Virus record (IMG/VR): IMGVR_UViG_3300042881_002568
Coordinates: 1-23,184 of that record
DNA from: a virus
Length of the DNA: 23,184 nt
Reading direction: 5' to 3' (one strand)
The notes below the pieces were generated by a model. The model saw only the letters and a list, made by a program, of their open reading frames with translations, was not told the DNA's origin and did not search any database. Positions 411 through 22,906 of this stretch are shown in pieces. The number at the start of each line of letters is the position of its first letter. The stretch's first letter is position 1. The position numbers and the translations under genes were made by a program.

Positions 411-655
411 TGTCCTTCCCCCTTCCCGCTGACGTTGACTTTCGCAAAATGTGCGTTGGTTTCTGGCTCGATGATGTTGACGACAGGCTCTATGCTGGCC
501 GTGTAGAAGACGCTGAGTTCAGCTGGAAAGAAGCCAATGGCATTTACCTCTCCCTTCCCCCAGGGAGTGGAGACTCTGAACTCGAGGACCGCATTGCCCT
601 TCAACGGGTAAAAATTGATAACTTCACAATCACAACCAATGAGAACTCTTTCTGA
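410..655 (+). CDS. Small unknown acidic protein (81 aa)
   Basis: ATG 410 overlaps the upstream TAA by one base; an earlier in-frame start at 347 would lie inside the preceding gene and is unlikely. The product (MSFPLPADVDFRKMCVGFW...) is acidic, with alternating hydrophobic residues that suggest a small beta-rich fold (VKIDNFTITTNENSF at the end). No recognised family. Its last 17 bases overlap the chaperone gene that follows. A GGGTAAAA motif lies inside its 3' end at 606-613, so the end of this gene may double as the control region of the next one. Confidence 0.6.
   Translation: MSFPLPADVDFRKMCVGFWLDDVDDRLYAGRVEDAEFSWKEANGIYLSLPPGSGDSELEDRIALQRVKIDNFTITTNENSF
606..613 (+). promoter_or_regulatory. 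GGGTAAAA cassette-boundary motif, copy 1
   Basis: Exact GGGTAAAA octamer, 25 bases before the ATG at 639 of the tail chaperone gene. Unlike the other six copies it lies inside the 3' end of the preceding gene rather than after its stop. Function unknown; a phage promoter or mRNA element is inferred from recurrence. Confidence 0.35.
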
Positions 656-965
656 CGACACGGTACAAGCAACACCGACAACCAAGAGGAAAGTTGCCCC
701 GAAACTGGAAACTTTTTCCACAGTTCTTTCGGACGGCAGGGAAATCACCATCCGAGAAATGACCGGCCGTGACCTCATCTACATGGAAAAAGACCTGACA
801 AAAGCAGGCGATGTGGAAAAAGGCATGAAAATCATTGAGCGTCTAATCGTAGGCGATGACAAGATCACTTACGACGAGATTCTCGACCTCGGTGTTAAAG
901 ACTTTCGCAAACTCAGTGATCTAGTTGCCAAAGCCAACGGAACTGACGAAGAAGACCCAAACTAA
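639..965 (+). CDS. Tail assembly chaperone, short form (gpG-like; 108 aa)
   Basis: Tail assembly chaperones coat the tape measure protein while the tail tube polymerises. The sequence has the compact layout of the Mu gp41 / phage tail assembly chaperone families. An N-terminal basic linker leads to a strand (residues 31-40, SDGREITIREM), then the family-like helix TGRDLIYMEKDL, a helix ending IERLI (66-70), and a last helix around DFRKLSDLVAK (89-98). ATG 639 is used, although an in-frame TTG at 615 exists; the TTG would lengthen the overlap with the previous gene. No clear Shine-Dalgarno is visible. The gene ends with a CCCAAAC slippery heptamer and then TAA at 963-965, so part of translation is expected to shift into the next frame. 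The assignment rests on motif resemblance, length, position and the frameshift signal. Confidence 0.72.
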   Translation: MRTLSDDTVQATPTTKRKVAPKLETFSTVLSDGREITIREMTGRDLIYMEKDLTKAGDVEKGMKIIERLIVGDDKITYDEILDLGVKDFRKLSDLVAKANGTDEEDPN

Positions 966-1387
966 CTGTGGAGGACGTTGAGGACTTTACTTACAGAGTA
1001 AACTGCTTCAACGGCCCCATCTTTCACTTTCGCGAAGTAACTCCAAAAGACTTCTATTTCGCACAAGTTCTTCGCCAAACCGAGCGTAGTCAACTCGAGC
1101 TTATTGAGCGGTTACTACTTAACTCGGAAGTTCTAGAAGAGGCCTCATCCCCTCAAACTCGAGCCGTGTTAAAATGGGCAGCTGAGACCTTGTTAAATCA
1201 AACCGTCCTCACTGTGGAAAACTGGCTCGAAGTTGCTTATCACTTGTGTAAGCAACGCTGGGACTCTTCTGTTGATTGGCTTGAGACTCAACCAATGAGT
1301 AAAATCAACGCCATGATTGACATTGTCAAACGGCATGCAGAAGAGCAAGAAAAGGAGATGAAAAAGTCAGCCCGGAAAAAGAAATGA
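639..1387 (+). CDS. Tail assembly chaperone, predicted -1 frameshift fusion (gpGT-like; 249 aa)
   Basis: Predicted join of 639..962 and 962..1387. Ribosomes reading CCA AAC at 957-962 can slip back one base onto CCC AAA and continue CTA ACT GTG GAG into the downstream frame. The product would be 108 residues of the short chaperone plus 141 residues of the extension. In lambda, the analogous gpG and gpGT products are made in a set ratio; gpG coats the tape measure and the T domain recruits tube subunits. Here the extension looks like a diverged copy of the first domain: REMTGRDLIYMEKDL...IERLI compares with REVTPKDFYFAQVL...IERLL. Frameshifting is inferred from the signal and not observed. Confidence 0.62.
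956..1018 (+). promoter_or_regulatory. Programmed -1 ribosomal frameshift signal (CCCAAAC plus stem-loop)
   Basis: The heptamer CCCAAAC at 956-962 is in the correct phase (C CCA AAC, then TAA at 963-965) for tandem slippage. Seven bases later a stem-loop can form. Positions 970-971 pair with 1017-1018, 973-974 with 1015-1016, and 976-983 with 1006-1013 (8 pairs, one G-U). A small internal loop follows, then 986-990 pairs with 998-1002 around a 7-base loop. The only candidate start for the second frame, GTG 968, sits directly before this stem and lacks a good Shine-Dalgarno, which favours frameshifting over independent initiation. Confidence 0.68.
968..1387 (+). CDS. Second tail assembly chaperone frame (T-domain-like extension; 139 aa from GTG)
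   Basis: The frame is open from base 947, just after TGA 944-946, and ends at TGA 1385-1387. A GTG at 968 could start it, but no Shine-Dalgarno is visible and the GTG lies against a predicted stem. I therefore read it mainly as the extension of the upstream chaperone through -1 frameshifting. The product is largely helical: FHFREVTPKDFYFAQVL, then helices ending IERLLL, KWAAETLL and WLEVAYHL, and a strongly basic C-terminus (KEMKKSARKKK). Its N-terminal half resembles the preceding chaperone, suggesting a duplicated domain. It overlaps the tail completion gene by ATGA. Confidence 0.65.
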   Translation: MEDVEDFTYRVNCFNGPIFHFREVTPKDFYFAQVLRQTERSQLELIERLLLNSEVLEEASSPQTRAVLKWAAETLLNQTVLTVENWLEVAYHLCKQRWDSSVDWLETQPMSKINAMIDIVKRHAEEQEKEMKKSARKKK

Positions 1388-1803: not shown

Positions 1804-1805
1804 TT

Positions 1806-2533: not shown

Positions 2534-2535
2534 CC

Positions 2536-2543
2536 GGGTAAAA
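2536..2543 (+). promoter_or_regulatory. GGGTAAAA cassette-boundary motif, copy 2
   Basis: Exact octamer two bases after the TAA at 2531-2533, in the 113-base leader of the sheath gene (103 bases before its ATG). It shares the left flank AACC with copy 3. Candidate promoter or mRNA element by recurrence. Confidence 0.4.
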
Positions 2544-2646
2544 GTCAGAAGCACCCTTGTGCCCGACAACAGCTCTGCGGAGACCACGTAGGAGTCATCC
2601 TTGCCTACACTGTTGGCCGGTAAAGAAGGACTATTTTTATAACAAA

Positions 2647-5600
2647 ATGGCCACTTTTTCCCTTGGCACCAGCGGGATTACCCCTGGCGCCCCCGGCGTT
2701 TTCATTAATGAGCAGCCGGGTCGTCTGGCTAATGCTGATCTTGCCAGCTTTAGCACAGTCTACATGCTTGTGGAAGCTGAAGAGAATGTTCCCTCGACCG
2801 GAAACTTCCTTCCTTTCAATACTCCCGTAAGCATCACCTCGCTGGCTGACTACCGCGCACGCATCGGCGGTATCGTTCCCACCAGCCGCATTCCCCTGCT
2901 TAGCTACAATTGCGTCAACGAGTTTTTCCAAAACGCTCAGGTCGGTGATCTGCGCGTTGTTCGCGTTGGTACCCCCAACCAAATCGTTGAGCTGGAATTC
3001 TTCCCCTCGGGAACCAAGATCAACAGCACTTCTGCCCCTTCCGCCCTCATGGCGGGAAATGTGGTCTATGTGCAGATGGTAATCAATGGTCTGCGCCTTG
3101 TGAGCGGACTTGATGACACTTTCCATCAAGCACACCCCGGTTACACCGCCGAAGGCGAATACCTCGGTGTTCCCGTGGAAATTCCCGTGAACTATGTCGC
3201 TGGTGACGAAGTCAACAACCGCAAAATCTCTGCGGCCATTGCCACCGCCGTCCGTAACGCCATTGAGAGCAATCCTTCCGTGCGCTCCAGCGTTTATGTT
3301 CGCGATTTTGGTCTCCTCAATGACCTTGACCCCCTTAACAACGCCAACTCCGAGAATAGCGCTGTTGTAATCGCCTCCACCACATTTGACGGCAACGTCT
3401 CCGTGGTTACTCAGGTGTTTCCCATCGGTACCAACTTCGTGTTCATGCAGAACACCTACGAGGTCCAGAACATTGTTGGCGAATCCACCAATCTGGAGCG
3501 CGTTCCCCAGGACTATACTCAGACCATCTCGACTGCGTTCGACGGTGTGCAAGATCAGGGCTACTTGATCACCCCTACCGCTTACGCTCAGTTTGATGCC
3601 GCTGGCCGTGCCCTCGTGGGTGCCGCCGCCGCTGCTCATTGCGAGAGCAACAACTTCAAGTGGATGGCTCTGGCTGATCCCGGTCCTTTCCTGATCACTG
3701 ACGTCAATAAGTATAGCAACTTCTCTGAGCATCAGGCTGCTGCTGACTTAGTCACAGGCATGAAGTACCTGGTTGACAACGCCATCTATGAGTGGACTGG
3801 CACCGGCATCTCCCCCGTCAAGCTTTCATACCAGACCATCGTTTACGGGCAATCTGCCGAAGTGGCAATTAACGAGTCCGCAAACCTGGTAGCAGATGAG
3901 CGACAGGTTGGACTTCTTGATGCCGGCGAGTACACAATTACCTCCGGTCTTACTGCCGTTGACGGTATCTTTACTCTGGACACAGACCAGTATTGGCCCG
4001 TAACTCTGCCGATTCAGCTGGTTACTCTGTCGAATGCCAACAACGTGGGCAACGACTTCCTCGCCGCTCAAGTTCAAGGTCAAGGCGCCACAACCTTTAA
4101 TCTTAACGGAACAGAGGTTTATCTGGTTGCTCCCCCGGCAAACGTTGCTGTCAGCGGAAGCTATTCGCTGAACAACGTCTTCCTGACTGTGTCTGCTGCC
4201 GACGCCTCCGCCGTGTTCAACGAGGTTGTGCTCGCTGGTGGAAGTGACTTCATCACTTCTCCCCCGAATGGAGCTGTCTACACTGTTGGAAGCGGCTCGA
4301 CTGGCCTTGTCAGTTATGCCGATGCTTATTGGGATCTGCCCGTAACCGTCAACGGACAAACGTCCGACCTGATTGAGAACATCTCCGGCGCCGACGCCGG
4401 TGTGAACACCCTGCACTTCCCCGGAACTCTGCAGAGCCCTACTGAAACCTATCGTTTCAATTGGGTCAATCGCACCATCTTTAACGCCAGTGTCTCGATC
4501 GCTGGATACTCGGGCCCTAACACCACCTACACTGGTGCTGCCGTAGTAACTGCCCTTAGCCACGGTCTGCGCTCTGGCCAAGTGATTTATTTCACTCAGC
4601 CTGTTGTGCAAACGAACGGTTCCCTGTCGAACAGCCTGTTTAAGCAGACAACCAAGCTCGTTAGCAATCCTTACTACGTCTCGGTCATCAGCACCGACAC
4701 GTTTGCTCTGGCGAACTCCCTCGACAACTACACCATTCAGTCCTGGGTTGGCATTCAGGCCGGTTACACAATCTCGGCCCTGCCGACGATCTTCTACTCT
4801 CGCATTCTCGGCGGTGGCCTCACCACGGTGACCCCCTACGAGCTGCTGACCCTGCCCACACAGCGCGGTCGCAAGTATGCGTTTGACACAAGTTCGATCT
4901 TCAACCAGGCTGCTGCCGCAGCTGTAACCCCTGCGGGTGATGTTGCCTCCAACCCCCGTTCCTCGATCTACCTGAACAACAGCTCCCTCATTCTGGGTAC
5001 CGAGCAGATTAACCCTTACGGCGAAGATCTGACTTCCCTCACCCAGTGCGGATGGCTGCCCAAGTTCAACCTGATCGACCCTGACACTGCCCCCGTAGCA
5101 GCGACCAACAACGCTTTCTGTGCTCCGACTGTAGATCAGTTCTTCCAGCCCGAAGCGTTCTTTGTTCCGACAATCGACGGCATCAACGGTGGTTCCTACA
5201 ACCCCGCTGGCACCTCGACCCTTGGCCCCATTGCTACCCTGAACGCTGGTTCTCGGACTGGTGGCACAGGTGGCTCGGCCGGTAACTATACCATCGCCGT
5301 GACCTCTAGCGGTCTGGGTACAGGCGCAACCGTGAACTTCACAGTTGGCAACACAGCCGCTGTAGGCCCGATTGCTACCCTGGGTGCTCCGACTGCTGGT
5401 GTTGCTGCTCTTCAAACGTTCAACGCCCCCACCTTCAACATCAATGCGGTCCCTACCACTTCCTCCACCGTAGGGTCTGGCGCAACGTTGAATGTAACCA
5501 TCTCCCCTGTTGCCGCAACCGCTGTGGTAACCGGTCTGGGGACCTTTGCCACCACTACTCCTGATCCGAGCCAAACTTTCACCAACATTACCACAATCAC

Positions 5601-7239
5601 TGCTCCGAGTGGTGGAACCGGTCTCGACCTTAGTTTCGACACCAACGTATCTGGAGACATCATCTCCGGAACTGTTGTAGTCAACGCAGGAGGAAGCGGC
5701 TATACTTACGGCGAAACCGTTACAATCACCGCTGGTGCGGGTCTTTACACCGCTGTTATCACCAATGCAAGTGCTGATGGTGTCGCAAGTGCCGTTGCCC
5801 TCAACGCAGCTGGAACTGGCTACAACACCACCGCTGTCCTGCAAATCGCCGCCGGTGACCTTGCTGGAATCTCGGGTGTTACCGTTCCGGTTGCTACCGT
5901 GACTCTGCCCGTGGGCATCACCACTGTAACTGTCAACAACCCTGGCATCAACTATGCTGCTCTGGAAACCCTGACCATTCCTGCTAACGCAGCTGGCTCG
6001 GGTATCACCCTTGCAACCATTCAAGTTGCTACCGTTACTGCGGGTCCTGGTGTTTTCTCGGCTGTAACCCCCTACGCCACAGCTTCCGGCCTTCTGACCG
6101 GTTCCTCCGCTGCTGACGCTCAGCAAATCCTGAGCCGTCTGACTGGCGTTTACTTCTCTGTTACTGCCAACGGCACTGCCCCTGACGGTGTGACTCCGGT
6201 TGTAGCAAACGGCTTTATGGCCGGTGCTTACAACGGTTCAACTTACAGCTGGGTGGCGATTGCCCCTCTGGCAGAAGGCGGCGATCTGACCTCGATCGGT
6301 CAGGTTTGCTATGGTTCTCAAGTCGAAGTGACTCTGAGCCCCGAGCAAACACCTCCCTCCTCCCTGTGGCGCTTTGATGCCATCACCTCCACTGAGATCA
6401 TCGACAATGCTCTCCGTGGTGTGGGCTTCAACGGTGTTCCTCAGGCCGTGTTCGTCGAAGCCGGCGTTGACAACGTGAACCGTCTCTATGACGACTCTCA
6501 GCGTTACTTCAACCCCTTCGGATTCATCGCCTACTACGGCCCTTACGTGGAAAACGGTGCCGGCCAGTTCATTCCCCCGTCACCCTATGTGACAGGTGTG
6601 GCTGTCCGTCGCTACCGCGCTGAAGGTTATCAGTTCCCGCCTGCCGGTGTTAAGTATCAGCTGGCTGATGCTGTGGCTGCTCAGATTCCGATCAACTCGG
6701 CTCAGCAGAACCTGCTCAACCCCGCTGGTTGCAACGCGATCCGCACCCTGCCTGGCTATCCTCAGACAGCCGTGTTTATCTGGGGTGGACGTACTCGCGT
6801 CAACACCAACGATGCTCAGCAGAAGCTGTATCAGTTTGTCAACACTCGCGTTATCCTCAACGTGGTGTATGGCTCGCTGCGTACCGCTTTCGACAGCCAG
6901 ATCTTCAACGTGATCGATGGTTTCGGTGTGATCTTCAACCAGATTATCTCGGTTGGCAACAGCATCCTGAACCAGCTGTACGTTCGTGGCGCTCTGTTCG
7001 GTGCTCGCCCGTCGGATGCCTTCCAGGTTATCTGCGACGGTCGCATCAACCCGCCCGAAGACATCGAGAACGGTATCGTGAATGCTAAGGTATTCGTAAC
7101 TCCGGTTCCGACCCTCGAGCGTATTCAGATCGACCTGATTCGCGTTGCCATCGGCAAGATGCAGCAAGAGCTGGATATTCAAGGCCTTGGTAACACCAAC
7201 GCTGCAGGTATCAACAATCCTACAGCTGGCCTCAACTGA
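2647..7239 (+). CDS. Tail sheath protein, greatly enlarged (1530 aa)
   Basis: The contractile sheath surrounds the tail tube and shortens to drive it through the host envelope. ATG 2647 gives MATFSLGTSGITPGAPGVFINEQPG, a standard sheath N-terminus; an upstream in-frame GTG gives an unlike leader and is rejected. Residues about 60-115 (SRIPLLSYNCVNEFF, VGDLRVVRVG) match the sheath N-domain. Residues about 338-387 (ALADPGPF..., AAADLVTGMKYLVDNAIY) look sheath-like. The conserved C-terminal domain spans about 1238-1530 (SSLWRFDAITSTEIID..., FIWGGRTR about 1376, final VAIGKMQQELDIQG). T4 gp18 is 659 aa; here long beta-type insertions (about 400-850) and a Gly/Thr/Ala-rich repeat block (about 857-1160) account for the excess. 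Codons are strongly biased (CTG, AAC, CGC/CGT), as expected for high expression. Coupled to the next gene by TGATG. Confidence 0.92.
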   Translation: MATFSLGTSGITPGAPGVFINEQPGRLANADLASFSTVYMLVEAEENVPSTGNFLPFNTPVSITSLADYRARIGGIVPTSRIPLLSYNCVNEFFQNAQVGDLRVVRVGTPNQIVELEFFPSGTKINSTSAPSALMAGNVVYVQMVINGLRLVSGLDDTFHQAHPGYTAEGEYLGVPVEIPVNYVAGDEVNNRKISAAIATAVRNAIESNPSVRSSVYVRDFGLLNDLDPLNNANSENSAVVIASTTFDGNVSVVTQVFPIGTNFVFMQNTYEVQNIVGESTNLERVPQDYTQTISTAFDGVQDQGYLITPTAYAQFDAAGRALVGAAAAAHCESNNFKWMALADPGPFLITDVNKYSNFSEHQAAADLVTGMKYLVDNAIYEWTGTGISPVKLSYQTIVYGQSAEVAINESANLVADERQVGLLDAGEYTITSGLTAVDGIFTLDTDQYWPVTLPIQLVTLSNANNVGNDFLAAQVQGQGATTFNLNGTEVYLVAPPANVAVSGSYSLNNVFLTVSAADASAVFNEVVLAGGSDFITSPPNGAVYTVGSGSTGLVSYADAYWDLPVTVNGQTSDLIENISGADAGVNTLHFPGTLQSPTETYRFNWVNRTIFNASVSIAGYSGPNTTYTGAAVVTALSHGLRSGQVIYFTQPVVQTNGSLSNSLFKQTTKLVSNPYYVSVISTDTFALANSLDNYTIQSWVGIQAGYTISALPTIFYSRILGGGLTTVTPYELLTLPTQRGRKYAFDTSSIFNQAAAAAVTPAGDVASNPRSSIYLNNSSLILGTEQINPYGEDLTSLTQCGWLPKFNLIDPDTAPVAATNNAFCAPTVDQFFQPEAFFVPTIDGINGGSYNPAGTSTLGPIATLNAGSRTGGTGGSAGNYTIAVTSSGLGTGATVNFTVGNTAAVGPIATLGAPTAGVAALQTFNAPTFNINAVPTTSSTVGSGATLNVTISPVAATAVVTGLGTFATTTPDPSQTFTNITTITAPSGGTGLDLSFDTNVSGDIISGTVVVNAGGSGYTYGETVTITAGAGLYTAVITNASADGVASAVALNAAGTGYNTTAVLQIAAGDLAGISGVTVPVATVTLPVGITTVTVNNPGINYAALETLTIPANAAGSGITLATIQVATVTAGPGVFSAVTPYATASGLLTGSSAADAQQILSRLTGVYFSVTANGTAPDGVTPVVANGFMAGAYNGSTYSWVAIAPLAEGGDLTSIGQVCYGSQVEVTLSPEQTPPSSLWRFDAITSTEIIDNALRGVGFNGVPQAVFVEAGVDNVNRLYDDSQRYFNPFGFIAYYGPYVENGAGQFIPPSPYVTGVAVRRYRAEGYQFPPAGVKYQLADAVAAQIPINSAQQNLLNPAGCNAIRTLPGYPQTAVFIWGGRTRVNTNDAQQKLYQFVNTRVILNVVYGSLRTAFDSQIFNVIDGFGVIFNQIISVGNSILNQLYVRGALFGARPSDAFQVICDGRINPPEDIENGIVNAKVFVTPVPTLERIQIDLIRVAIGKMQQELDIQGLGNTNAAGINNPTAGLN
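5215..6120 (+). repeat. Gly/Thr/Ala-rich repeat block inserted in the sheath gene
   Basis: Sheath residues about 857-1160 are low-complexity and beta-rich. GPIATL occurs twice (near 5224 and 5367). A motif of the form G-x-G-Y/I-N/T-Y followed by T-x-x-I occurs three times: GSGYTYGETVTITAG near 5692, GTGYNTTAVLQIAAG near 5812 and PGINYAALETLTIPA near 5941, about 40-43 residues apart. The block looks like decoration-type repeats placed on the sheath surface. The nucleotide copies are diverged. Confidence 0.6.
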
Positions 7240-7541
7240 TGATACTAGAGAGTCAAACAATGTATAGGGATCTAAACCTACGGCTTCCTGAGACTCTCTT
7301 TTTTCACTTGGAAAGACAAGCGGAGGAGCAAGGCGTTTCATTTGATTCGCTGTGCTTCTCCCTTCTTTCCGGGCAAAAACAAGAGTCTTTCCTTGTGGAT
7401 CCGTCATATTACGAGTCAATGACACTTGACATTTTAAGAAAACAAATCCGCAAAGTTGTAGAGAGCGATCTCCCCAAGGAGGAAGTTCGCAAAAGAGTTA
7501 ACGCTCTTGAGTTTCAAATCTCTCGGAGATACATTCGATGA
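7239..7541 (+). CDS. Small ribbon-helix-helix-like protein (100 aa)
   Basis: The N-terminal part reads as a ribbon-helix-helix (Arc/CopG type) unit: strand YRDLNLRLP, helix ETLFFHLERQAEEQG, turn VSFD, helix SLCFSLLSG. In RHH proteins the strand enters the DNA major groove as a dimer. The C-terminal half is charged and helical (LDILRKQIRKVVESDLPKEEVRKRVNALEFQISRRYIR). ATG 7239 overlaps the sheath stop; an in-frame ATG at 7260, with AGAG eight bases upstream, would place the strand at the very N-terminus and may be the real start. It lies between sheath and gp25-like genes and overlaps the latter by ATGA. It may be a late regulator or a structural helper that only resembles RHH. Confidence 0.6.
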   Translation: MILESQTMYRDLNLRLPETLFFHLERQAEEQGVSFDSLCFSLLSGQKQESFLVDPSYYESMTLDILRKQIRKVVESDLPKEEVRKRVNALEFQISRRYIR

Positions 7542-7917: not shown

Positions 7918-7925
7918 GGGTAAAA
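7918..7925 (+). promoter_or_regulatory. GGGTAAAA cassette-boundary motif, copy 3
   Basis: Exact octamer in the 44-base gap between the gp25-like and portal genes, 34 bases before the portal ATG. A second GGG starts 20 bases after the first G, an arrangement also seen with 18-19 base spacing at copies 4 and 6. Confidence 0.42.
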
Positions 7926-7959: not shown

Positions 7960-9549
7960 ATGGCGCAACGATTCAAGACAGCACCAGTCCCATCGGGTGA
8001 AGTCGCAAGGTACACAAGCGACCCGTATAATCTATCGTCCATTTATATGTTCGGTAGTTCCTCTCCCTTTACGGGGCAGGGGAACACGATCGTGCGCCCG
8101 AACGATGACCTCCTCATTCAAAAAGGTGGTAACAGGGCTCTCGTAGTTTATCAACGCTTGCTCTACGATGAGCAAGTGCAAGCTTGCTTTCGAAAGTTAC
8201 TGCAAGAAGTAACTTCTCGACCCTGGTACATTCAGCAATACTCAGACAAACCTGGAGACCTCGCAGTGCGCGACTTTGTCGCTGAGGTTCTCGAGGAAAT
8301 GCCTCTCGACGACATTTATACAGGAATGGCAGAGGCTCTAATCGCTGGTTTCTCCGTTGGAGAAATCATGTGGAAGAAAACGAAGCGCGGTGTGATACCT
8401 TTTGACGTTCGCATGCGCGATCAACGCCGTTTCGTTTTTCAAGAGGAGCAAGATGCTGCCAACGGTTTCACAATGCGTTGCCTCACCTTCAACCGCATGT
8501 TCGAAGGTGTGGAACTACCGCAACGAAAGTTTATCGTTAGCCGCTACTGGGTTTCGCACAATGGTGACCCGTATGGCGCTGCGCTGGGCCGAATCCTTTA
8601 TCCACTTGTCAAGTTTCGCCGTCGCGCCATCGAGTCATACGTCCTCTATGGTGACCGCTACGCTACGCCAACAGCTGTTGCAAAAGCTCCGCTCTCCGCA
8701 AGCACGCGAGAGTTGGACACACTTTACGGACATCTCTCCAACCTGTCCCAAGAAACCGCAATGATTCTACCGGAAGGGTACGAACTTGAGTTCGTCGTTC
8801 CCTCCGGGTCTCCCGAGGTTTTTAAAAACCTGATTGATTACATCGACAAAGAGATTTCTCTTGTTATTTGTGGAGAGGATGAGGCAGGGCAAGCTGAAGC
8901 TGGCTCCCGAGCTTCCTCCCAGGTTGCCAACACCATTCGCGTGGTCCGTGCCAGTGAAATTTCTGAGATGCTGTCACAAACTCTATCTCAGACCCTGGTT
9001 CGTTGGATTGTCGATCTGAACTTCGGTACCGACGTAGCAGCACCCTATCTCACTCGTGAGTTTCGCATCGAAGAGTCCCCCCTCACGATGCCTGACATCT
9101 CTCTCCTCATTCAGTCCGGATACACTCCTCGCAAAGAGTGGCTTGAGCGTCACTTCCGAGTGGAGCTGGAGGATAAGAAATCAGAAAGCGGAGAAGAAGC
9201 CACAACCTATGATCCTCAAAAAGATCAAGACTTGTTCGGATCTATTTTTGGCTCTAATGCTTCGGGACAACCGACAGCAGAGCAACAACAAGCAGCTTCT
9301 CAGGATCTTCAAGCTGCTGCCAACGAGACCGCCTTACCGGCTGGTGCGGCGCCTGAGGAAGGACAATCAGACGCTGTATCCCAACCTTCACCCGAAGACG
9401 AACTAGGGCAGGCGATTGATACAATGCCTGGGTCGGGTGAAGGAATGCCTGAGATGTCTCTTGAGGATTTGCTGGAAGGGGAAGATCAAAAACCTTTCGG
9501 CAATCAAAAAATCTCGGAAGACGAAGCTGTAGAGATGGATCGTAAGTAG
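7960..9549 (+). CDS. Portal protein, Mu gp29 / DUF935-like (529 aa)
   Basis: The portal ring occupies one capsid vertex, nucleates head assembly, and passes DNA during packaging and ejection. The DUF935-type layout is visible. The stem-proximal start is GNRALVVYQRLLYDEQVQ (about residues 47-64) and SRPWYI. Next come MAEALIAGFSVGEIMWKK (about 119-136) and RDQRRFVF. The core is PQRKFIVSRYW...DPYGAALGRILYPLVKFRR (about 187-225), with YGDRYATPTAV. The clip/stem helices lie at about 300-350 (VICGEDEAGQAEAGSRASSQ; LSQTLVRWIVDLNFG). The last 100 residues are Gln/Ala-rich and then acidic, probably disordered. ATG 7960 has a weak GAGA upstream. Length fits Mu gp29 (about 510 aa). It is followed directly by the protease-scaffold gene, as in Mu-type heads. 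Confidence 0.86.
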   Translation: MAQRFKTAPVPSGEVARYTSDPYNLSSIYMFGSSSPFTGQGNTIVRPNDDLLIQKGGNRALVVYQRLLYDEQVQACFRKLLQEVTSRPWYIQQYSDKPGDLAVRDFVAEVLEEMPLDDIYTGMAEALIAGFSVGEIMWKKTKRGVIPFDVRMRDQRRFVFQEEQDAANGFTMRCLTFNRMFEGVELPQRKFIVSRYWVSHNGDPYGAALGRILYPLVKFRRRAIESYVLYGDRYATPTAVAKAPLSASTRELDTLYGHLSNLSQETAMILPEGYELEFVVPSGSPEVFKNLIDYIDKEISLVICGEDEAGQAEAGSRASSQVANTIRVVRASEISEMLSQTLSQTLVRWIVDLNFGTDVAAPYLTREFRIEESPLTMPDISLLIQSGYTPRKEWLERHFRVELEDKKSESGEEATTYDPQKDQDLFGSIFGSNASGQPTAEQQQAASQDLQAAANETALPAGAAPEEGQSDAVSQPSPEDELGQAIDTMPGSGEGMPEMSLEDLLEGEDQKPFGNQKISEDEAVEMDRK

Positions 9550-9556
9550 GGTAAAA
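9549..9556 (+). promoter_or_regulatory. GGGTAAAA cassette-boundary motif, copy 4
   Basis: Exact octamer beginning on the last base of the portal stop codon (TAG 9547-9549), 28 bases before the GTG of the protease-scaffold gene. The left flank GTAAGTA is identical to that of copy 6. Confidence 0.42.
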
Positions 9557-9584: not shown

Positions 9585-12251
9585 GTGTTTACAAAACGCA
9601 TCCACGTCTTCAAAGCAGGTGATCAAACCTCTGCCCAAGGAGTTCAGAGACACTTCTCTGAAAAGGACCTTGAGCAGGTGGTTAAAACTTACGATCCCTC
9701 GATCCATGAAGCGCCCCTCGTAATCGGTCACGCAGGCGACAATGACAGCCTTCCTGCATATGGTTGGATCCAAGGATTCAGCAAGCAGGGGGGCAATTTG
9801 TATGCCGACGTCGCTTTTACGGATACGGCAAAAGATCTGGTGAAGGACGGTCATTATCGCAAGGTTTCGATCTCATTCTACTCACCCGATAGTGCCATCA
9901 ATCCTCACAAAGGAAAGTGGAGTGCCCGACACCTCGCCTTGCTGGGGGCCTCTCCCCCGGCGGTAAAAGGTTTAGAACCCTTCTCCTTCTCGGAGGCGGA
10001 GGGAGTCTACGACTTTGCCGTAGCTCTCGCTCCCTCGGATATCTTCGATGAGGAACTTGGTCCCACGCTTATTGTGGAAAAAAGCCCCCTCGAAATGCTC
10101 CGAGAGAAACTTGAGGCCGTCCGCGAGGACGTCTCAGGTGCGGTAAAAGAACTACAAGGTAATCAACAAGCACAACCTACCGAGGAACTGGAAGAAGTTA
10201 CCACATCGTCCGTTACCGAACAACCGGAACTCGGACAAATGGCTAACCCAGACGCTCCCCAATTCAAAGAATCTACAAAACACGTGGGTCGCGAAGGTAC
10301 TGAAATCGCTCAGCAAACGGCTGACCTCGAAACTCAATTTCCGGAAGAGGAATTTATGGAACAAGGAAAAATCAGCCGGAAGCACGCTAAAGGTGCCCAC
10401 GGCCAAGTCATGCAAGTCGTAGAAAACGTCTACGAGGAAGCACACAAAGAATCGACCGACGAGCGTAAAGCCGCTGCCGACCGTGCCTTCGAAGCCAAGC
10501 GCATGAAGAAGGAAGGTAAGCCCGGCGAAGCCAAAGAGGTCAAGCGTTTTGGTAAGGAAGAGGACAAACTCATCAAAGAGGCTAAGCACTCTGAGGATGA
10601 GGACTCTGCCGACCACGCTGAGAATGATGAGTTCGGTCGTTATGACACCGCTCGCTCTAATTCTGACGGTTACGTTGATCGCATGAAGACCGGTAAGCAG
10701 GGTGCTAGCGGAAACGTGGAGCGCATGAAGACTGCAAAGTCTGGTGAGCAAGATCGCGATCGTATGCACACCGCCGAGAACGGTGAGCAAGACGAAGATC
10801 GTATGCATACCGCCAAGGCTTCCATGGCTGACGCTGATGGTGAGAGCCGCTGGGCTGGTCAAGAAGATGGTTACGATCAAGTAACCAACATGGACCAGTA
10901 CGACGCTGGCCTGGACGATTATCCCGAAGGCAACAAGCCCAAAATGTCTACTGGCACCGACCCCTACGGTCGTGACGAAACCGAAACCAAGATGCCGACT
11001 GAGTCGGAAGAAATGCCTGATGACGAAGTATTTGCGGTGTCAACCGTGAACGTAATGTCTGATGGCAGCATGCGTGTACTTCGCACAAAATCCTCAGACT
11101 CTCGCGCCAAGTCTGCCAAAATGCACGACCTTCTCTATGCTGAAGGCGGTCCCCAAGCTGACGAAATGACCGGCGAAGACGGTGTAACCACCGCCCGCAA
11201 GTCCATGAAGGGCAGCAAAATGGTTGAGCATGCCGAGTATGAGACTGACGACGCTGATAGCGATGCCAGCCTGGAAACTCTGCGTCACGAAATTGGCGAT
11301 GGTAAAAAGTCCAAGAGCCGTCAGCTCACCCCTGGCGCCATGGACACCATTGATGACCCCGGTCAGATCGTTGGCCCTGACGGTGCCTTCGCTGAGTCCT
11401 ACAAGGGCGAGCCCAAGGCCAAGTCCAAGCAGCTGACCCCTGGTGCTATGGACACCGTTGAGGATCCTGATCAAATCACCGGACCTGACGGTGTTTATGG
11501 AGAGGCCTCCCTGCAGTCTCTCCGTGATAACATCGGCGACGGTAAGAAGTCCAAAGCCAAGCAACTCACCCCTGGCGCTATGGACACCGTGACCGATCCT
11601 GCTGAGGTTTCGAAGAAATCTGGCGGCGTCTATGCTGAGGAGCATGGCGAGAAGAAAGATCCCTACACCAAGACCGGTTTCGGTTCCACCTACGAAGAAG
11701 GTGAAGGCGATGACGGTGTTGATGAGGGTGAAGAGGACTACAACGAGCTGAGCGTTGATCACTCCGGTTGTGGCATGAACTATGGTGGCATGAGCTCCAT
11801 GGGTCATCGCAGCATGAACCCTGGTATGGATATGTCTGCCATGTACGAGGAACTTGCCAGCCTCAAGCGCAGCTATGCTGAGCTGGAGCGCAAGCACCGT
11901 GAAGAGAAAATGAACTTCCGTCGGATGCAAATGGCTGAGGCCATTGGTCATCTGTACACCGAGGGTCGTCTGACCGACGGCATCATGCCCGAGCAAGAGC
12001 TGATCTCTTACGCCGAAGGCCTGGAGTTTGGCACCCTGGAGTTCTCCGAGGGTGAAACCGCAGCCACCAAGCTGCTGAATCTGCTGAGCAATCTGCCCCC
12101 GATGGTTCACTTCGGTGAGGTTGCCGGTGGTACATTCCAGTTTGCTGAAGAGTCTGATCTGGATCCCCATGAGAAGGCTCTGAAGATGGTGGAAGCTTCT
12201 GAAGGGCAACTGGATTACGTGGAAGCCCTGAAGAAGGCTATGTTTAGCTGA
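9585..12251 (+). CDS. Prohead protease fused to scaffold (Mu gpI-like protease plus long scaffold; 888 aa)
   Basis: Residues 1-135 match Mu-like I protease. Visible motifs are PLVIGHAGD (His49), LPAYGWIQG, LYADVAFTDTAKDLV, GHYRKVSISFYSP (Ser95/Ser97) and RHLALLGASPPAVKGLEPF. By analogy with HK97-type prohead proteases, His49 and Ser95 or Ser97, about 46-48 residues apart, are candidate catalytic residues (inference). The rest is a highly charged scaffold: 13-14-residue RM(K/H)T repeats (366-410), three QLTPGAMDT repeats (about 560-675), a coiled coil (about 755-790, MYEELASLKRSYAELERKH) and a conserved-looking C-terminus ending YVEALKKAMFS. GTG 9585 is the only usable start after the in-frame TAA at 9552, and no Shine-Dalgarno is visible. 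In Mu and lambda, scaffold is also made from an internal start; a candidate exists here at 10356. The scaffold is unusually long. Confidence 0.86.
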   Translation: MFTKRIHVFKAGDQTSAQGVQRHFSEKDLEQVVKTYDPSIHEAPLVIGHAGDNDSLPAYGWIQGFSKQGGNLYADVAFTDTAKDLVKDGHYRKVSISFYSPDSAINPHKGKWSARHLALLGASPPAVKGLEPFSFSEAEGVYDFAVALAPSDIFDEELGPTLIVEKSPLEMLREKLEAVREDVSGAVKELQGNQQAQPTEELEEVTTSSVTEQPELGQMANPDAPQFKESTKHVGREGTEIAQQTADLETQFPEEEFMEQGKISRKHAKGAHGQVMQVVENVYEEAHKESTDERKAAADRAFEAKRMKKEGKPGEAKEVKRFGKEEDKLIKEAKHSEDEDSADHAENDEFGRYDTARSNSDGYVDRMKTGKQGASGNVERMKTAKSGEQDRDRMHTAENGEQDEDRMHTAKASMADADGESRWAGQEDGYDQVTNMDQYDAGLDDYPEGNKPKMSTGTDPYGRDETETKMPTESEEMPDDEVFAVSTVNVMSDGSMRVLRTKSSDSRAKSAKMHDLLYAEGGPQADEMTGEDGVTTARKSMKGSKMVEHAEYETDDADSDASLETLRHEIGDGKKSKSRQLTPGAMDTIDDPGQIVGPDGAFAESYKGEPKAKSKQLTPGAMDTVEDPDQITGPDGVYGEASLQSLRDNIGDGKKSKAKQLTPGAMDTVTDPAEVSKKSGGVYAEEHGEKKDPYTKTGFGSTYEEGEGDDGVDEGEEDYNELSVDHSGCGMNYGGMSSMGHRSMNPGMDMSAMYEELASLKRSYAELERKHREEKMNFRRMQMAEAIGHLYTEGRLTDGIMPEQELISYAEGLEFGTLEFSEGETAATKLLNLLSNLPPMVHFGEVAGGTFQFAEESDLDPHEKALKMVEASEGQLDYVEALKKAMFS
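10356..12251 (+). CDS. Candidate nested scaffold from internal start (631 aa)
   Basis: ATG 10356 is in frame with the protease gene (codon 258) and preceded by GGAAGAGGAA at 10343-10352, with the GAGG core five bases from the start. The product begins MEQGKISRKHAKGAHGQV and would hold the entire scaffold without the protease. Codon use changes near here: the protease part uses TTG and TTA leucines (residues 72, 119, 130), while downstream leucines are almost all CTG, CTC or CTT, as in the capsid protein. Mu Z and lambda Nu3 are made in this nested way (established). An alternative internal ATG at 10239 has a weaker upstream sequence. Whether it is used here is inference. Confidence 0.45.
   Translation: MEQGKISRKHAKGAHGQVMQVVENVYEEAHKESTDERKAAADRAFEAKRMKKEGKPGEAKEVKRFGKEEDKLIKEAKHSEDEDSADHAENDEFGRYDTARSNSDGYVDRMKTGKQGASGNVERMKTAKSGEQDRDRMHTAENGEQDEDRMHTAKASMADADGESRWAGQEDGYDQVTNMDQYDAGLDDYPEGNKPKMSTGTDPYGRDETETKMPTESEEMPDDEVFAVSTVNVMSDGSMRVLRTKSSDSRAKSAKMHDLLYAEGGPQADEMTGEDGVTTARKSMKGSKMVEHAEYETDDADSDASLETLRHEIGDGKKSKSRQLTPGAMDTIDDPGQIVGPDGAFAESYKGEPKAKSKQLTPGAMDTVEDPDQITGPDGVYGEASLQSLRDNIGDGKKSKAKQLTPGAMDTVTDPAEVSKKSGGVYAEEHGEKKDPYTKTGFGSTYEEGEGDDGVDEGEEDYNELSVDHSGCGMNYGGMSSMGHRSMNPGMDMSAMYEELASLKRSYAELERKHREEKMNFRRMQMAEAIGHLYTEGRLTDGIMPEQELISYAEGLEFGTLEFSEGETAATKLLNLLSNLPPMVHFGEVAGGTFQFAEESDLDPHEKALKMVEASEGQLDYVEALKKAMFS
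10680..10820 (+). repeat. RM(K/H)T 13-14-residue repeats in the scaffold
   Basis: Four copies begin at codons 366, 380, 393 and 406 (R of RMKT, RMKT, RMHT, RMHT), at bases 10680, 10722, 10761 and 10800. The units end in GEQD-type or GASG-type linkers. The near-constant 13-14 residue period suggests a regular helical or extended segment made by tandem duplication. Confidence 0.65.
11265..11620 (+). repeat. QLTPGAMDT tandem repeats in the scaffold
   Basis: Three copies of KSK-x-(R/K)-QLTPGAMDT-(I/V)-x-DP occur near 11304, 11421 and 11544. Copies 1 and 3 are preceded by ASL(E/Q)(T/S)LR followed by IGDGKKSK; copies 1 and 2 are followed by GPDG(A/V)(F/Y). The unit is about 35-45 residues. Copies are near-identical in protein but differ in codons. 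Confidence 0.75.
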
Positions 12252-13023: not shown

Positions 13024-13031
13024 GGGTAAAA
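13024..13031 (+). promoter_or_regulatory. GGGTAAAA cassette-boundary motif, copy 5
   Basis: Exact octamer immediately after TGA 13021-13023, at the head of the 90-base leader of the decoration/capsid cassette, 82 bases before the ATG at 13114. The leader also has short alternative pairings (13035-13039 with 13049-13053; 13045-13049 with 13063-13067) of uncertain meaning. Confidence 0.42.
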
Positions 13032-13113
13032 ATGGTTACTGCAGCTAGGTAACAAAACAAGTCCTAGAGCAAACAAACTCAACCTTTGAAGTCCCTTACC
13101 TTAGGATAAAAAT

Positions 13114-13706: not shown

Positions 13707-14777
13707 ATGATGAACCTGCAACAAACCTACGCAGGTGTTGATCCTATTCTGACAACACTTGCCCAAGGTTTCATGCTGCCGGCGACCAACATTGCGAACT
13801 TTATCGCTCCCGTCGTCGACACCCCCACTCGTGCTGGCCGCATTCTGCGTTTCGGCAAAGAGCAATTCGCCATTAACGACTTCCGTCGTGCTTATGGCAC
13901 CAACATTCCGTATGTTCAGAGCCGCTATGACTCGGAGCCTTATGCTCTCGAGCAAGAAGTCGTGGCTTGGGAACTTCCGGAAGAAGTTATCGAGAACGCT
14001 GGCGAAGGCCCCGCTCAGGTTGACCTGCGTGCGATTGAAACTCGCAACGCCATGTCCCGCCTGATGAACGCCTATGAGTACACCGTTTCTCAGGCTGTTA
14101 CCGTTCAGAACACCGACCCGGCCCTGGGTTACAACCCTTATGAGCCCTGGGATGGCGTTGTCGGTAGCCAAACCGGTCAAGGCTTCCTGACCTGGTCTAA
14201 CTTTAAGAGTTCTTACAGCTCGGCCGCTGGCGATTCCGCCTGGTCGTCTTCCACCTCGAACCCGATCGAAGACGTTCTGTCGCTGAAGCGTACAGTTGCT
14301 AACCAGATCGGCATTCGTCCGAACTCGATGGTTGTTGGTACCGCTGTGTTCGACCAGCTGCTGACCAACAGCGCGATCCTTGAGCGTATCAAGTACACCA
14401 CCGCTGACAGCATCGACACCGACATCCTGGCCCGTTACTTCGGCCTGGAGCGCGGTCTGCGCGTGGCTGAGGGTCGTTATCTGTCCCAAAACGGCGAGCT
14501 GCTGCCCGTGTTCCCCGAGAACGGCATCCTGCTGTTCTACAGCCCCAACGGTCCTTCGGATTCCGTGATGCCTGCTGGTGGCGCCAACGCCGCTACTCCC
14601 GCTTTCGCTTACACCTACCAGCTGACCGGCACCCCTGCCGTTCGTCCTGAGTACTACATCCGTGAGCGTCGTGTGGTCCGCGCTGAAATCACTGTTGAGC
14701 GTGTTGTAAACCTGGTGGGTCTTGGTTCCACCGGTCTGATCGGTTCGGGAGCTATGGTCACCGACATCCTGTCCTGA
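13707..14777 (+). CDS. Major capsid protein, HK97 fold (356 aa)
   Basis: The product forms the icosahedral shell. Features fit the E-type / Mu-like capsid family. The helical N-arm is LQQTYAGVDPILTTLAQGF. An E-loop-like region follows at about 45-90 (AGRILRFGKEQFAINDFRRAYGTNIPYV). The spine helix region is ALEQEVVAWELPEEVIENA...RLMNAYEYTV. The A-domain is visible at about 195-265 (DVLSLKRTVANQIGIRPNSMVVGTAVFDQLL, ERIKYTTADSIDTDILARYFGLERGLRVAEGRY), and a C-terminal RRVVRAEITVERVVNLVG strand ends the core. ATG 13707 has ACGGAG nine or so bases upstream; a second ATG is adjacent. Leucine codons are overwhelmingly CTG/CTC, consistent with very high expression. It sits after scaffold and decoration genes, as expected. 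Confidence 0.88.
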   Translation: MMNLQQTYAGVDPILTTLAQGFMLPATNIANFIAPVVDTPTRAGRILRFGKEQFAINDFRRAYGTNIPYVQSRYDSEPYALEQEVVAWELPEEVIENAGEGPAQVDLRAIETRNAMSRLMNAYEYTVSQAVTVQNTDPALGYNPYEPWDGVVGSQTGQGFLTWSNFKSSYSSAAGDSAWSSSTSNPIEDVLSLKRTVANQIGIRPNSMVVGTAVFDQLLTNSAILERIKYTTADSIDTDILARYFGLERGLRVAEGRYLSQNGELLPVFPENGILLFYSPNGPSDSVMPAGGANAATPAFAYTYQLTGTPAVRPEYYIRERRVVRAEITVERVVNLVGLGSTGLIGSGAMVTDILS

Positions 14778-14805: not shown

Positions 14806-15249
14806 ATGGCTATTCTTCGCCCATTAACCAAGTCGCAGTACGAAGTTTCGTTTACTGCCTTAGGTGGACCGACTTTTACAGCGGTGTTCACTCAATTCAG
14901 CGGAATCAATGATTCCTCAGATAGCAGCACCTACGCTAATGGCACAGGCAATCGTCTGTTCCACGTTGTTGGTCCTCGTACCGCAGATAATGTAACCATT
15001 ACTGCCCCATACGATCCGACAATCTTCAAGACTCTCGAGCAATTCTGGCTCGATTACAACTGTAATCCCATCACCATCACTGTCACCCCGCGTGATTGTT
15101 CCGGTGAAGGTTCCGCCCCTGGCGGCGGTCAGTACATCTGCTACGAGTGTCAATTCGTTTCGATCACCACTGCTGACGTTGATCGCGAGAGCGGCGACGT
15201 GCAGACTGTGGAGGTTGAGTTTACCGTAAATTATTGGGAGAGAACCTGA
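14806..15249 (+). CDS. Tail tube protein (147 aa)
   Basis: The tube is the rigid inner channel of the contractile tail. The sequence is an all-beta protein of the right length (T4 gp19 is 163 aa). It has SQYEVSFTALGGPTFTAVFTQFSGI (about 10-34), matching the 'F.v...g....F..vsGl' start of tube proteins; YANGTGNRLFHVVGPRTADNVTIT (about 43-66, compare 'n......p.....-l.l.rg'); LEQFWLDYN (about 77-85); and a C-terminal strand pair, YECQFVSITTADVDRESGDVQTVEVEFTVNYW. Four cysteines (86, 98, 112, 115) are unusual for this family. It has a very strong ribosome binding site and an intrinsic terminator just downstream. The gene lies next to the capsid gene rather than the sheath gene, which is atypical. 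Confidence 0.72.
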   Translation: MAILRPLTKSQYEVSFTALGGPTFTAVFTQFSGINDSSDSSTYANGTGNRLFHVVGPRTADNVTITAPYDPTIFKTLEQFWLDYNCNPITITVTPRDCSGEGSAPGGGQYICYECQFVSITTADVDRESGDVQTVEVEFTVNYWERT

Positions 15250-15271: not shown

Positions 15272-15298
15272 GACCCCGGCTTCGGCTGGGGTCTTTTT
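15272..15298 (+). terminator. Intrinsic terminator after the tail tube gene
   Basis: GACCCCGGC pairs with GCTGGGGTC (nine pairs, one G-U) around a TTCG tetraloop, followed immediately by TTTTT at 15294-15298. This is a complete rho-independent terminator ending the decoration-capsid-tube cassette. A GGGTAAAA motif begins eight bases later. Confidence 0.92.
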
Positions 15299-15305: not shown

Positions 15306-15313
15306 GGGTAAAA
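15306..15313 (+). promoter_or_regulatory. GGGTAAAA cassette-boundary motif, copy 6
   Basis: Exact octamer lying seven bases after the terminator T-run and 29 bases before ATG 15343. Because transcription should end just upstream, this copy most strongly suggests that the motif, or the sequence around it, restarts transcription. The left flank GTAAGTA equals that of copy 4. Confidence 0.5.
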
Positions 15314-15897: not shown

Positions 15898-18738
15898 GTG
15901 GCAAGATACGCACCATTACCCTCCGTATCGATTGACCCGCGTAACGAAGCAGAACTTGTTCAAAACGCCAGTCAACGAGTTTACGAAGCTTCAGGTCAAA
16001 CTCTGAATGACTTCTCTGCCGGAAACCCCCTTGCAGCATTGCTCGAGGGGCAGGTTTTCGCACAGGGAGAGTTTCTGTTTTGGGCCAATCAGTTACCTCA
16101 GTCCATTTTAATTGAGTGGTTGGGTCCTTTTCTCGGTGCCATGCGACGACTTGGCACACCTGCAATTGCTCGACTACAGTTAACTGTCCCCCCCTCAAAC
16201 ACGGTTACCGTAGTTCCGGCTGGAACAGCATTCACCACGGATTCAAATCTTACGGGTGGTGAGCAATTTACATTTGTAACGGACACTGAGATTTCAATTC
16301 CTGCGGGAGAGTCTGTCGAATATGTTACCGTTGCGTCTCAATATGTTGGCAGCATTTACAACGCGCCGGCAAATTCCATCACTGGGGTCTCCGCTGTCAA
16401 CGTGAATGGCCTCACGGCTACAAACTTAAAACCTGCAGTAGGTGGAAGCGATGTTGAGACATATCAAGAAGTTCAAGAAAGATTTTTCACACTCATTCGT
16501 CGTAGAAACCCGGTAAGCAAGGAGGACTGGCAAGACTTCTTCACTGACTTCTATGGTGTCGGTACTCAGACTTCCGTTCAGCCAAATCGTCCCAGTCAAG
16601 GCACATACAACTATCTTACCGACTACCTGAAGCCCAATGGTCAGGTGTCGTTCTTCGTGCTCGGTCCTGGCGGTGTTGAACTGACTGAGACACAGCTCGA
16701 GCGTGGACAAAATGTTGTAAACTATTCTGTTCCCGTTGAGAACCAGGGTCATCTCTATCCGATCACCCTGAGTCAAGTTCAATACAACTTGACTGTAGAG
16801 GTTGACGCAAATGGGGCTTTCGGCGTTAGTCTAAAAGACTCTTCCCTTAACTTCCGTGACCGGTTGTTTGAGATTCTTACGCCGGGTACTGTCTTCCCTT
16901 CGATGACAGATCCGACGGTAAGTGATGTTGATGCAGCCTTCTATTCAACTTTTGACGCCAACACACGATTCATAGATCCGCACATTGAACTCAGCGCTGC
17001 ATACAACACGCCACCTTTACTCGACTCGGCAGCGGCCACCTACACGCAAGTTTACGACTTTGAGCCCGTTGGGGACTTACTTCAAGAGAACGATCTGGTA
17101 GAGGTAACTCTGCCTACAAAGATTTTTTATCCCGTTCTTTCAGATTTTACACCTTACTCCATTAATAAAAAAGATCAAACTATTTACGGTAACTTAAGAC
17201 TGGAGCAAATTCAATTTTTGGTTTCCGGTGACTATCAGCAAGGTGATGTTTGTTACTGGGATCCTTCCTTACCGGGCGGCGACAGCGAGCTTCACGTCAT
17301 CAATGAAAACCTTACGATTGGCACTTCAGAAGAAATTCCAGCACTAATTGCCCTGGGCAAGATTTCCTCGGCAAAAACTTTTTCTGCATACGGCTTATCC
17401 ACAGTTGGAACTTCCTATCAGGCTACTGCTCCTGGCGGTATCTTCGACCCCGAGATCATTCAATATGACTATGTTTCCGGAGACGGACAGTTTATTCCTG
17501 ACCCCAGTTCAACCATCCCCTTGTCAAAACGGCCGGGTGCTTTTGTTTGGGTTGTAAATCAAAACTTTGTTCTGGGGGCCCCTACGAACGACCTTACAGG
17601 TGCTCAGTCAGCTTTTAAACTCGGTAGCCCTGTTGTTCCCCTTCAACTCACGGAAGGAACAACATACTCCCCTGGGCAGTGGGTTTATACGCCTCAAATT
17701 GGGTCCGGCCCCAACCCGGTTGCTGACCCTTATTACAACTACGTTGACGTACAAAGAGGGGTTGTAAATAAATACGCATATGTCATTGAAACTTTCACTT
17801 ACCTACCTAACGGCCTTCGCACAAGTGACTACTTTGATGAGTTGGTTCTTCAAGAAGTTGTACGTGAAGTTGTGGTGCAAAATGGAGACGTAGGTTTACC
17901 CGTTTCTAAATACAAACCACGTTTTCCTGCCGGAACGTATCTTGAGTATCGCGTAAATGCAAACGCTGTACCCGAATACTACATTGCAGCCCAATATTTT
18001 ACGCCCGACAGCACTCAAGCTCAAACTCTGGTTAATCAAGGATTAATCTTTCCTCTGTACATTAATAGTGTTCAGTATTCAACTTTAGTTGTTGACCTAA
18101 ACAACAAAACAGTAACTCAGCCCACAAGAATGTTTAGATTTTTTGAGGGCGATCGGACTTTCTTCCGTCAAGGGACAAAAGTAGTTTCTTATCGAGCCAC
18201 TTCCAACGTTCACCCTTTATTTGAATTTTACATCTATCTGCAGAATGGTATTTTTGTAGAGGACGGTCAATTTTTACCTGGGCAAATAGAAAGCACCGGT
18301 TACATACCCTACTTCAACCCCGACTATGTGCAATATTCGGAGGATACCATCCTTTCGGAGGATGGCAGGAATCTCTATCGGGTGATGCGAGCATTCACAC
18401 CAAACTCTACGGTTGTAAATTGGACCAACACCACGGTTGTAAATACAGCCCGGATCGAGGAGTTTGAAGGTAACCTGCTGCGGTACGTGAACAAGTATTC
18501 TTGCGAAGAAGACATTCTGTCTCAACTCGGGAGAGACATTTCTGCGATTAAGTTAGGGGTCGCCCAGATCACAATCATTCCAAAAAACATTGGCCGTCTC
18601 TCTAACTCACGTCAAAATGTCATCTACGTGTGGGAAAATACGACAACAATCACAGAAACACCTCAACTATCCTGGTACTCGGGTACGCCATACACGCAAG
18701 ATCCCCCCAACTATGGTGACGGGACCCTGAGGCTATGA
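15898..18738 (+). CDS. Baseplate wedge protein, gp6/gpJ family (946 aa)
   Basis: T4 gp6 and P2 gpJ form the ring of wedges around the baseplate hub. The N-terminal 220 residues carry the Baseplate_J pattern: helix QVFAQGEFLFWANQLP; ARLQLTVPPSNTVTVVPAGTAFTT (about 97-120, 'vp.Gt.f'); ISIPAGESVEYVTVASQYVGSIYNAPANSI (about 133-162); LKPAVGGSDVETYQEVQERF (about 178-197, 'a..GgdeEsde.lR.R'); then RRRNPVSKEDWQDFF. GTG 15898 is supported by GAGG at 15887-15890, seven bases upstream. T4 gp6 is about 660 aa; the extra length is a Tyr/Pro-rich beta extension of unknown role (about 450-850). Leucine and valine codons include many TTA, CTT and GTA, unlike the capsid genes. It overlaps the next gene by ATGA. 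Confidence 0.86.
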   Translation: MARYAPLPSVSIDPRNEAELVQNASQRVYEASGQTLNDFSAGNPLAALLEGQVFAQGEFLFWANQLPQSILIEWLGPFLGAMRRLGTPAIARLQLTVPPSNTVTVVPAGTAFTTDSNLTGGEQFTFVTDTEISIPAGESVEYVTVASQYVGSIYNAPANSITGVSAVNVNGLTATNLKPAVGGSDVETYQEVQERFFTLIRRRNPVSKEDWQDFFTDFYGVGTQTSVQPNRPSQGTYNYLTDYLKPNGQVSFFVLGPGGVELTETQLERGQNVVNYSVPVENQGHLYPITLSQVQYNLTVEVDANGAFGVSLKDSSLNFRDRLFEILTPGTVFPSMTDPTVSDVDAAFYSTFDANTRFIDPHIELSAAYNTPPLLDSAAATYTQVYDFEPVGDLLQENDLVEVTLPTKIFYPVLSDFTPYSINKKDQTIYGNLRLEQIQFLVSGDYQQGDVCYWDPSLPGGDSELHVINENLTIGTSEEIPALIALGKISSAKTFSAYGLSTVGTSYQATAPGGIFDPEIIQYDYVSGDGQFIPDPSSTIPLSKRPGAFVWVVNQNFVLGAPTNDLTGAQSAFKLGSPVVPLQLTEGTTYSPGQWVYTPQIGSGPNPVADPYYNYVDVQRGVVNKYAYVIETFTYLPNGLRTSDYFDELVLQEVVREVVVQNGDVGLPVSKYKPRFPAGTYLEYRVNANAVPEYYIAAQYFTPDSTQAQTLVNQGLIFPLYINSVQYSTLVVDLNNKTVTQPTRMFRFFEGDRTFFRQGTKVVSYRATSNVHPLFEFYIYLQNGIFVEDGQFLPGQIESTGYIPYFNPDYVQYSEDTILSEDGRNLYRVMRAFTPNSTVVNWTNTTVVNTARIEEFEGNLLRYVNKYSCEEDILSQLGRDISAIKLGVAQITIIPKNIGRLSNSRQNVIYVWENTTTITETPQLSWYSGTPYTQDPPNYGDGTLRL

Positions 18739-22897: not shown

Positions 22898-22898
22898 C

Positions 22899-22906
22899 GG
22901 GTAAAA
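22899..22906 (+). promoter_or_regulatory. GGGTAAAA cassette-boundary motif, copy 7
   Basis: Exact octamer one base after TAA 22895-22897 and 19 bases before ATG 22926 of the last, partial gene. Confidence 0.42.

Follow-up and report, generated by a model that had tools for sequence, protein, structure and literature searches.

What does a short word do that recurs, letter for letter, ahead of the structural genes of a phage? The DNA analysed here (referred to as the window) makes up an entire IMG/VR record, a whole viral contig of 23,184 bases, and represents a genome fragment of a contractile-tailed phage whose structural genes all run in one direction. Among cultured phages, Synechococcus phage S-CBWM1 is the closest (capsid, 64%; portal, 61.5%), with the S-TIM5 group being farther away (capsid, 37%). 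A near-identity search with the window among phage records gave no match, and neither did an Rfam scan of the window. By capsid, 320 relatives were found in IMG/VR, and the best 80 of these provided the loci that we analysed.

An earlier note on this sequence had listed seven exact copies of the octamer GGGTAAAA, and we recover all seven on the + strand and none on the - strand (Table 1). An order-2 Markov model predicts 0.26 copies on the + strand [P(≥7) = 1.3e-8], and after correction for all 65,536 octamers the probability is still 8e-4. GGGTAAAA is the commonest + strand octamer of the window, and shuffled windows contained on average 0.79 copies on both strands, with a maximum of 3. For copies 1 to 7, the likely start codon that follows lies 33, 111, 42, 36, 90, 37, and 27 bases past motif start, in agreement with the 19 to 103 bases given earlier from motif end. 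The described proximity of six copies to a stop codon or terminator is likewise borne out: five overlap a stop codon or lie at most 2 bases from one, and the copy at 15306 follows a terminator, the exception being the copy at 606. The terminator said to be complete at that site is a strong one, and the orthologues keep the arrangement of terminator and then copy 6. Scans of the window revealed no excess of sigma-70 promoters (17 versus 14.7 in shuffles) or of terminators overall (20 versus 19.5 in shuffles). Two finer resemblances, GTAAGTA shared by copies 4 and 6 and a second GGG at +18 to +20 in copies 3, 4, and 6, are real in the window but are not conserved in the family and thus appear incidental.

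Table 1. Positions of the octamer copies, genes, and RNA features of the window, and of the gp142 gene in relatives
Feature	Position	Strand	Description
GGGTAAAA copy 1	606..613	+	precedes gene with ATG 639; exact in orthologues, 9/9
GGGTAAAA copy 2	2536..2543	+	precedes tail sheath gene; exact in orthologues, 11/11
GGGTAAAA copy 3	7918..7925	+	precedes portal gene; exact in orthologues, 19/27
GGGTAAAA copy 4	9549..9556	+	overlaps portal stop codon, precedes protease gene; exact in orthologues, 31/31
GGGTAAAA copy 5	13024..13031	+	precedes w12 (ATG 13114), then capsid and tube genes; exact in orthologues, 45/55
GGGTAAAA copy 6	15306..15313	+	precedes w15 (ATG 15343), then baseplate J, w17, and w18; exact in orthologues, 54/54
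GGGTAAAA copy 7	22899..22906	+	precedes gene with ATG 22926, which runs off the contig
Tail sheath gene	2647..7239	+	phrog_17610, E 2e-45; start ATG 2647
Portal gene	7960..9549	+	phrog_113, E 1e-72; start ATG 7960
Head maturation protease gene	9585..12251	+	phrog_976, E 1.5e-60; start GTG 9585
Major capsid gene	13707..14777	+	phrog_1005, E 2e-49
Tail tube gene	14806..15249	+	phrog_35249, E 8e-6
Baseplate wedge (J-like) gene	15898..18738	+	phrog_6, E 5e-19
Intrinsic terminator	15272..15298	+	9-bp stem (15272-15293), 7 GC pairs, T5; after tail tube gene, directly before copy 6
Three-way-junction-like RNA in sheath leader	2567..2615	+	just downstream of copy 2; covariation, no Rfam match
Leader hairpin CTAGG...CCTAG of w12 transcript	13045..13067	+	2/5 pairs covary, 100% of cells paired
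gp142 gene	L090:1633-2247 (S-CBWM1 101633-102247)		orthologues at L095:19085-19687 and L109:23-517

Across the 80 relatives' loci, which span 829 kb and are partly redundant, GGGTAAAA occurs 223 times on the forward strand and never on the reverse. With orthologous gene starts placed by tblastn, the exact octamer was found upstream of every comparable start of w01 (9/9), the sheath gene, the protease gene, and w15, and upstream of most starts of w12 and the portal gene; the w19 start was comparable in one relative and has it there (1/1). For starts without the motif in the window, the relatives with a motif amount to 0/9 each for w02, w03, and w05, 1/24 for w07, 1/25 for w08, 1/52 for w11, 1/60 for the capsid gene, 0/59 for the tube gene, 4/44 for baseplate J, 0/24 for w17, and 0/27 for w18. 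At the motif-bearing orthologous sites the motif columns are 100% identical and the flanks 30 to 45%, which marks GGGTAAAA as a true footprint. The arrangement around copy 7 also recurs in L010, L017, L033, L055, L082, and others.

The portal exceptions apparently have an inserted gene just upstream. At w12, many exceptions appear to have an inserted gene between motif and w12, or else a closely similar octamer, for example GGGTAAAT. Small inserted genes, apparently HNH-endonuclease-like by eye, are seen in the portal or w12 upstream regions of L011, L020, L021, L031, L058, L062, and others. In the w12 insertions it is the inserted gene that follows the motif, its ATG sometimes being only ~15 bases past motif start, and the transcripts of such genes are possibly leaderless.

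Whole genomes of relatives display the same pattern. S-CBWM1 (139 kb) has GGGTAAAA 33 times on the forward strand and once, within a gene, on the reverse. Every forward copy is followed after 7 to 103 bases (median, 35) by the annotated start of a gene or tRNA, where 15% would be expected (p ~6e-28), and 8 of these copies provide the stop codon TAA of the preceding gene. The variant AGGTAAAA is found 28 to 39 bases before starts in 6 of its 9 occurrences. In gene lists hand-picked from the annotation, 10/20 structural genes of S-CBWM1 have their own copy, versus 0/17 genes of replication, nucleotide metabolism, photosynthesis, and sigma factors (Fisher p, 6e-4); some copies precede tRNA genes (in S-CBWM1), HNH genes, or hypothetical genes. 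A search for early promoters before motif-less S-CBWM1 genes gave no clear TATAAT-type signal and only weak CCGCCCTT-type words.

Long IMG/VR contigs show forward-to-reverse ratios of 28:1, 29:0, 24:1, and 18:1. In contigs G001 and G003 the sole reverse copy and a forward copy are ~34 bases apart, and the former stands ahead of a conserved reverse-strand gene of 150 amino acids. All forward copies in G017 (190 kb) are located beyond 101 kb, and in G021 (277 kb) the forward copies occupy 167 to 277 kb and the first 3 kb, with none in 10 to 163 kb, so that the motif is confined to the structural part and the first 3 kb. G021 (IMGVR_UViG_3300044625_001067; 277,244 bp; L136-L149) is a jumbo-size relative with a long motif-free half, and carries the gene set of the window at 179 to 203 kb with 33 to 80% identity. 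With the window being a whole contig, the full-genome check suggested by the earlier note was made in relatives. Two of the conditions under which that note would give up its reading, a motif as common inside genes or on the other strand and a lack of conservation, do not hold there: the motif is strand-specific, placed at gene starts, and conserved.

We aligned 95 pooled sites from five genomes between -60 and +60. A or C is favoured before the octamer and a pyrimidine (C or T) at each of the two following bases; position +14 from motif start is A in 61% of the sites. Within this range nothing else is consistent: we observe no -35 box, no TAGGC at -32, and no TATAAT-like element upstream or downstream. 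The A at +14 is likely the transcription start, and with TAAAAY as the -10 hexamer the polymerase would be expected to start at position 14 or 15. For copy 1, transcription would likely begin near A620, and the sheath transcript would have a leader of ~97 nucleotides. Strand bias, position, invariance at orthologous sites, confinement to the structural part of larger genomes, and placement behind a terminator all strongly favour what the earlier note put first, a phage late promoter not described before. Judged from these sequence patterns, GGGTAAAA is very likely a promoter, and gene content and genome position indicate that these promoters are likely late-acting.

A related organization emerges in S-TIM5 (L091-L094). 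An octamer precedes structural genes with the spacing seen in the Aokuangvirus-like group, and the genome contains a sigma factor annotated as SigF, but the octamer is GTTTAAAG instead of GGGTAAAA. It is present in 20/43 upstream regions chosen as late (0.4 expected), and 27/36 genomic copies lie 5 to 105 bases before a same-strand start, on both strands (p ~1e-25), including divergent pairs between divergent genes. Because the orientation of GTTTAAAG follows the gene, it favours a promoter and disfavours RNA processing. GGGTAAAA was considered as a signal in S-TIM5 as well; it has 12 copies there, only 1 of them upstream of a start, and is not used.

Two of the leaders downstream of the motif contain conserved RNA structures, and both begin after the presumed transcription start. 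The structure in the sheath leader shows compensatory changes in 11/14 predicted pairs among 11 relatives and may act in cis to regulate the sheath gene. In the w12 leader the hairpin stem occurs as CTAGG/CCTAG, CTGAG/CTCAG, and CTGGG/CCCAG, and a conserved TTGAAGTCC follows farther downstream; AAGTCC is present in the hairpin and again downstream, so an alternative pairing might form.

Which factor could read such a promoter? The window contig itself has no sigma gene, and the link between sigma factor and motif comes from relatives: a SigF-like sigma is encoded in S-CBWM1, G001, G003, and other relatives. S-CBWM1 has two sigma factors, gp142 and gp152. The latter matches the SigB/SigF/SigG (SigBFG) and SigF (PRK07408) models through regions 2 and 3, to residues 152 to 154, yet at 53 bits it remains below the NCBIfam curated cut-off of 234 for SigF/SigBFG and is therefore called SigF-like, not SigF. 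Sigma region 2 (PF04542) is found in all 11 members of the gp152 family, and the Pfam region 3 match is weak. The C-terminus of gp152 has no Pfam region 4, with weak region 4 matches on residues 119 to 136. Its AlphaFold model is of moderate quality (pLDDT, 69), and the Foldseek matches of this model are sigma factors, including Staphylococcus aureus SigB; the C-terminal helices may correspond in these matches to sigma 4 of other sigma factors, and gp152 may thus have a region 4 in reduced form. The gp152 orthologues in G001 and G003 are 51 to 57% identical to gp152 (alignment A1), and both contigs also carry the gene set of the window, most genes at 49 to 89% identity. The other factor, gp142, is a sigma-70/ECF-like protein with regions 2 and 4, and is perhaps a middle-gene sigma. 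Distant sigma matches in L159-L162, with an ordinary region 4 by eye, are not accompanied by motif enrichment in those contigs.

It is likely, on the strength of these comparisons, that gp152 reads GGGTAAAA. The host RNA polymerase core would carry the phage-encoded SigF-like sigma (S-CBWM1 gp152 or its orthologues), and this holoenzyme would need no -35 box, recognizing nothing but the octamer. DNA would be melted at the octamer and transcription would start at an A ~6 to 7 bases downstream, giving one late transcription unit per copy: sheath; portal; protease; w12, capsid, and tube; w15 and baseplate; and so on. That the octamer has the downstream half of the SigF/SigB pattern without the upstream half is as expected for a sigma factor lacking a working region 4. 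Taken as a whole, we consider it probable that GGGTAAAA is the -10-type late-promoter core of Aokuangvirus-like cyanophages, read by SigF-like gp152 and its orthologues without a -35 box.

A late promoter with a different reader, either gp142 or a sigma factor of the host, be it SigF or another, is the rival to be taken most seriously, although we regard it as unlikely. G001 and G003 carry orthologues of gp142 as well, TIGR02937 spans regions 2 to 4 of gp142, and SigF of Synechocystis reads GGTAA. However, with a region 4 in the reading sigma factor a -35 signal would be expected, and the alignment shows none; SigF and SigBFG are the best models of gp152, not of gp142; and in S-TIM5 the octamer and the distant gp152 homologue (its SigF) both differ, as if the motif drifts with the phage sigma. 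Alternatively, the octamer could be the site of a phage activator acting with host SigA holoenzyme at a true -10 element elsewhere. The sequence is compatible with this and S-CBWM1 has other putative DNA-binding proteins, but conservation beyond the octamer is limited to the bases directly adjoining it and to the A at +14, with no other box, which leaves such an activator site very improbable.

The options of an mRNA processing or a translation element, also raised by the earlier note, fit less well, given the varying spacing, the copies before tRNAs and small inserted genes, and RNA structures found only downstream. An RNA octamer GGGUAAAA serving as a cleavage or binding site at the gene junctions of long transcripts, affecting processing or stability, would suit the location of most copies at gene junctions, several of them overlapping stop codons. 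It would not suit copy 6 behind a strong terminator in an arrangement kept by orthologues, a divergent gene that has a separate copy in its own orientation, or the same architecture in S-TIM5 on both strands and at divergent pairs, and the conserved RNA structures lie exclusively downstream of the motif; we consider this reading as improbable as the activator site. Least credible of all is a ribosome-binding or enhancer sequence for translation. Its appeal is a position mostly 29 to 42 bases before start codons, but distances range from 7 to more than 100 bases, structured leaders of 90 to 111 bases intervene, tRNA genes are preceded by copies in S-CBWM1, and separate purine-rich stretches such as AGGA are present before several starts.

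A promoter read by gp152 would have a clear parallel. The late promoter octamer of T4-type phages is TATAAATA. T4 late promoters, which depend on gp33, the gp45 clamp, and the phage sigma gp55 without domain 4, likewise consist of a -10-only octamer-like element before structural genes; as gp55 does in T4, a phage-encoded and perhaps reduced sigma would act here on host core RNA polymerase. A similar consensus has been reported for cyanophage S-PM2 (PMC2988020). Unlike in T4, the invariant octamer here is GGGTAAAA and not TATAAATA-like, and the phage sigma resembles SigB/SigF and not gp55. The hosts use SigF, a cyanobacterial stress and pilus sigma factor, for pili. Cyanobacterial group 3 SigF (promoters of pilA1 and sigF) requires TAGGC at -32 and GGTAA at -12, and the SigB -10 element is GGGTAT (PMC2758279). 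GGGTAAAA contains this GGTAA and resembles GGGTAT, whereas the -32 TAGGC is absent, and gp152 matches the SigF model but is without a recognizable region 4. Bacillus and Listeria SigB promoters (GTTT-N12-16-GGGTAT) have the GGGTA core in common with GGGTAAAA, their -35 GTTT being absent here, and Listeria SigB sites with GGGTAA exist (PMC5641562). In Microcystis phage Ma-LMM01, by contrast, late promoters, although also those of cyanophage late genes, have been reported as SigA-like, with -35 and -10 elements (PMC5780444). It is about an even call whether cyanophages captured a host-type group 3 SigF that lost its -35-reading domain and became a late sigma, with T4 gp55-like -10-only logic reached independently and the octamer drifting between genera (GGGTAAAA versus GTTTAAAG).

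In the open literature we found neither GGGTAAAA nor GTTTAAAG described as a phage promoter, and nothing relevant on S-CBWM1 or on the SigF of S-TIM5, an earlier mention of the octamers in the genome papers of these two phages being possible. The T4-like logic is known; the octamer sequence appears to be new. Compact orthogonal promoter-sigma pairs could be derived from it for cyanobacteria, where few well-behaved expression tools are available. GGGTAAAA and GTTTAAAG with their sigma factors represent a natural pair for -10 recognition without a -35 box, and gp152 is named as a testable phage sigma. Finally, in this large cyanophage group, few of whose members are in culture, the octamer provides a rule by which late transcription units can be read, jumbo-size genomes included.
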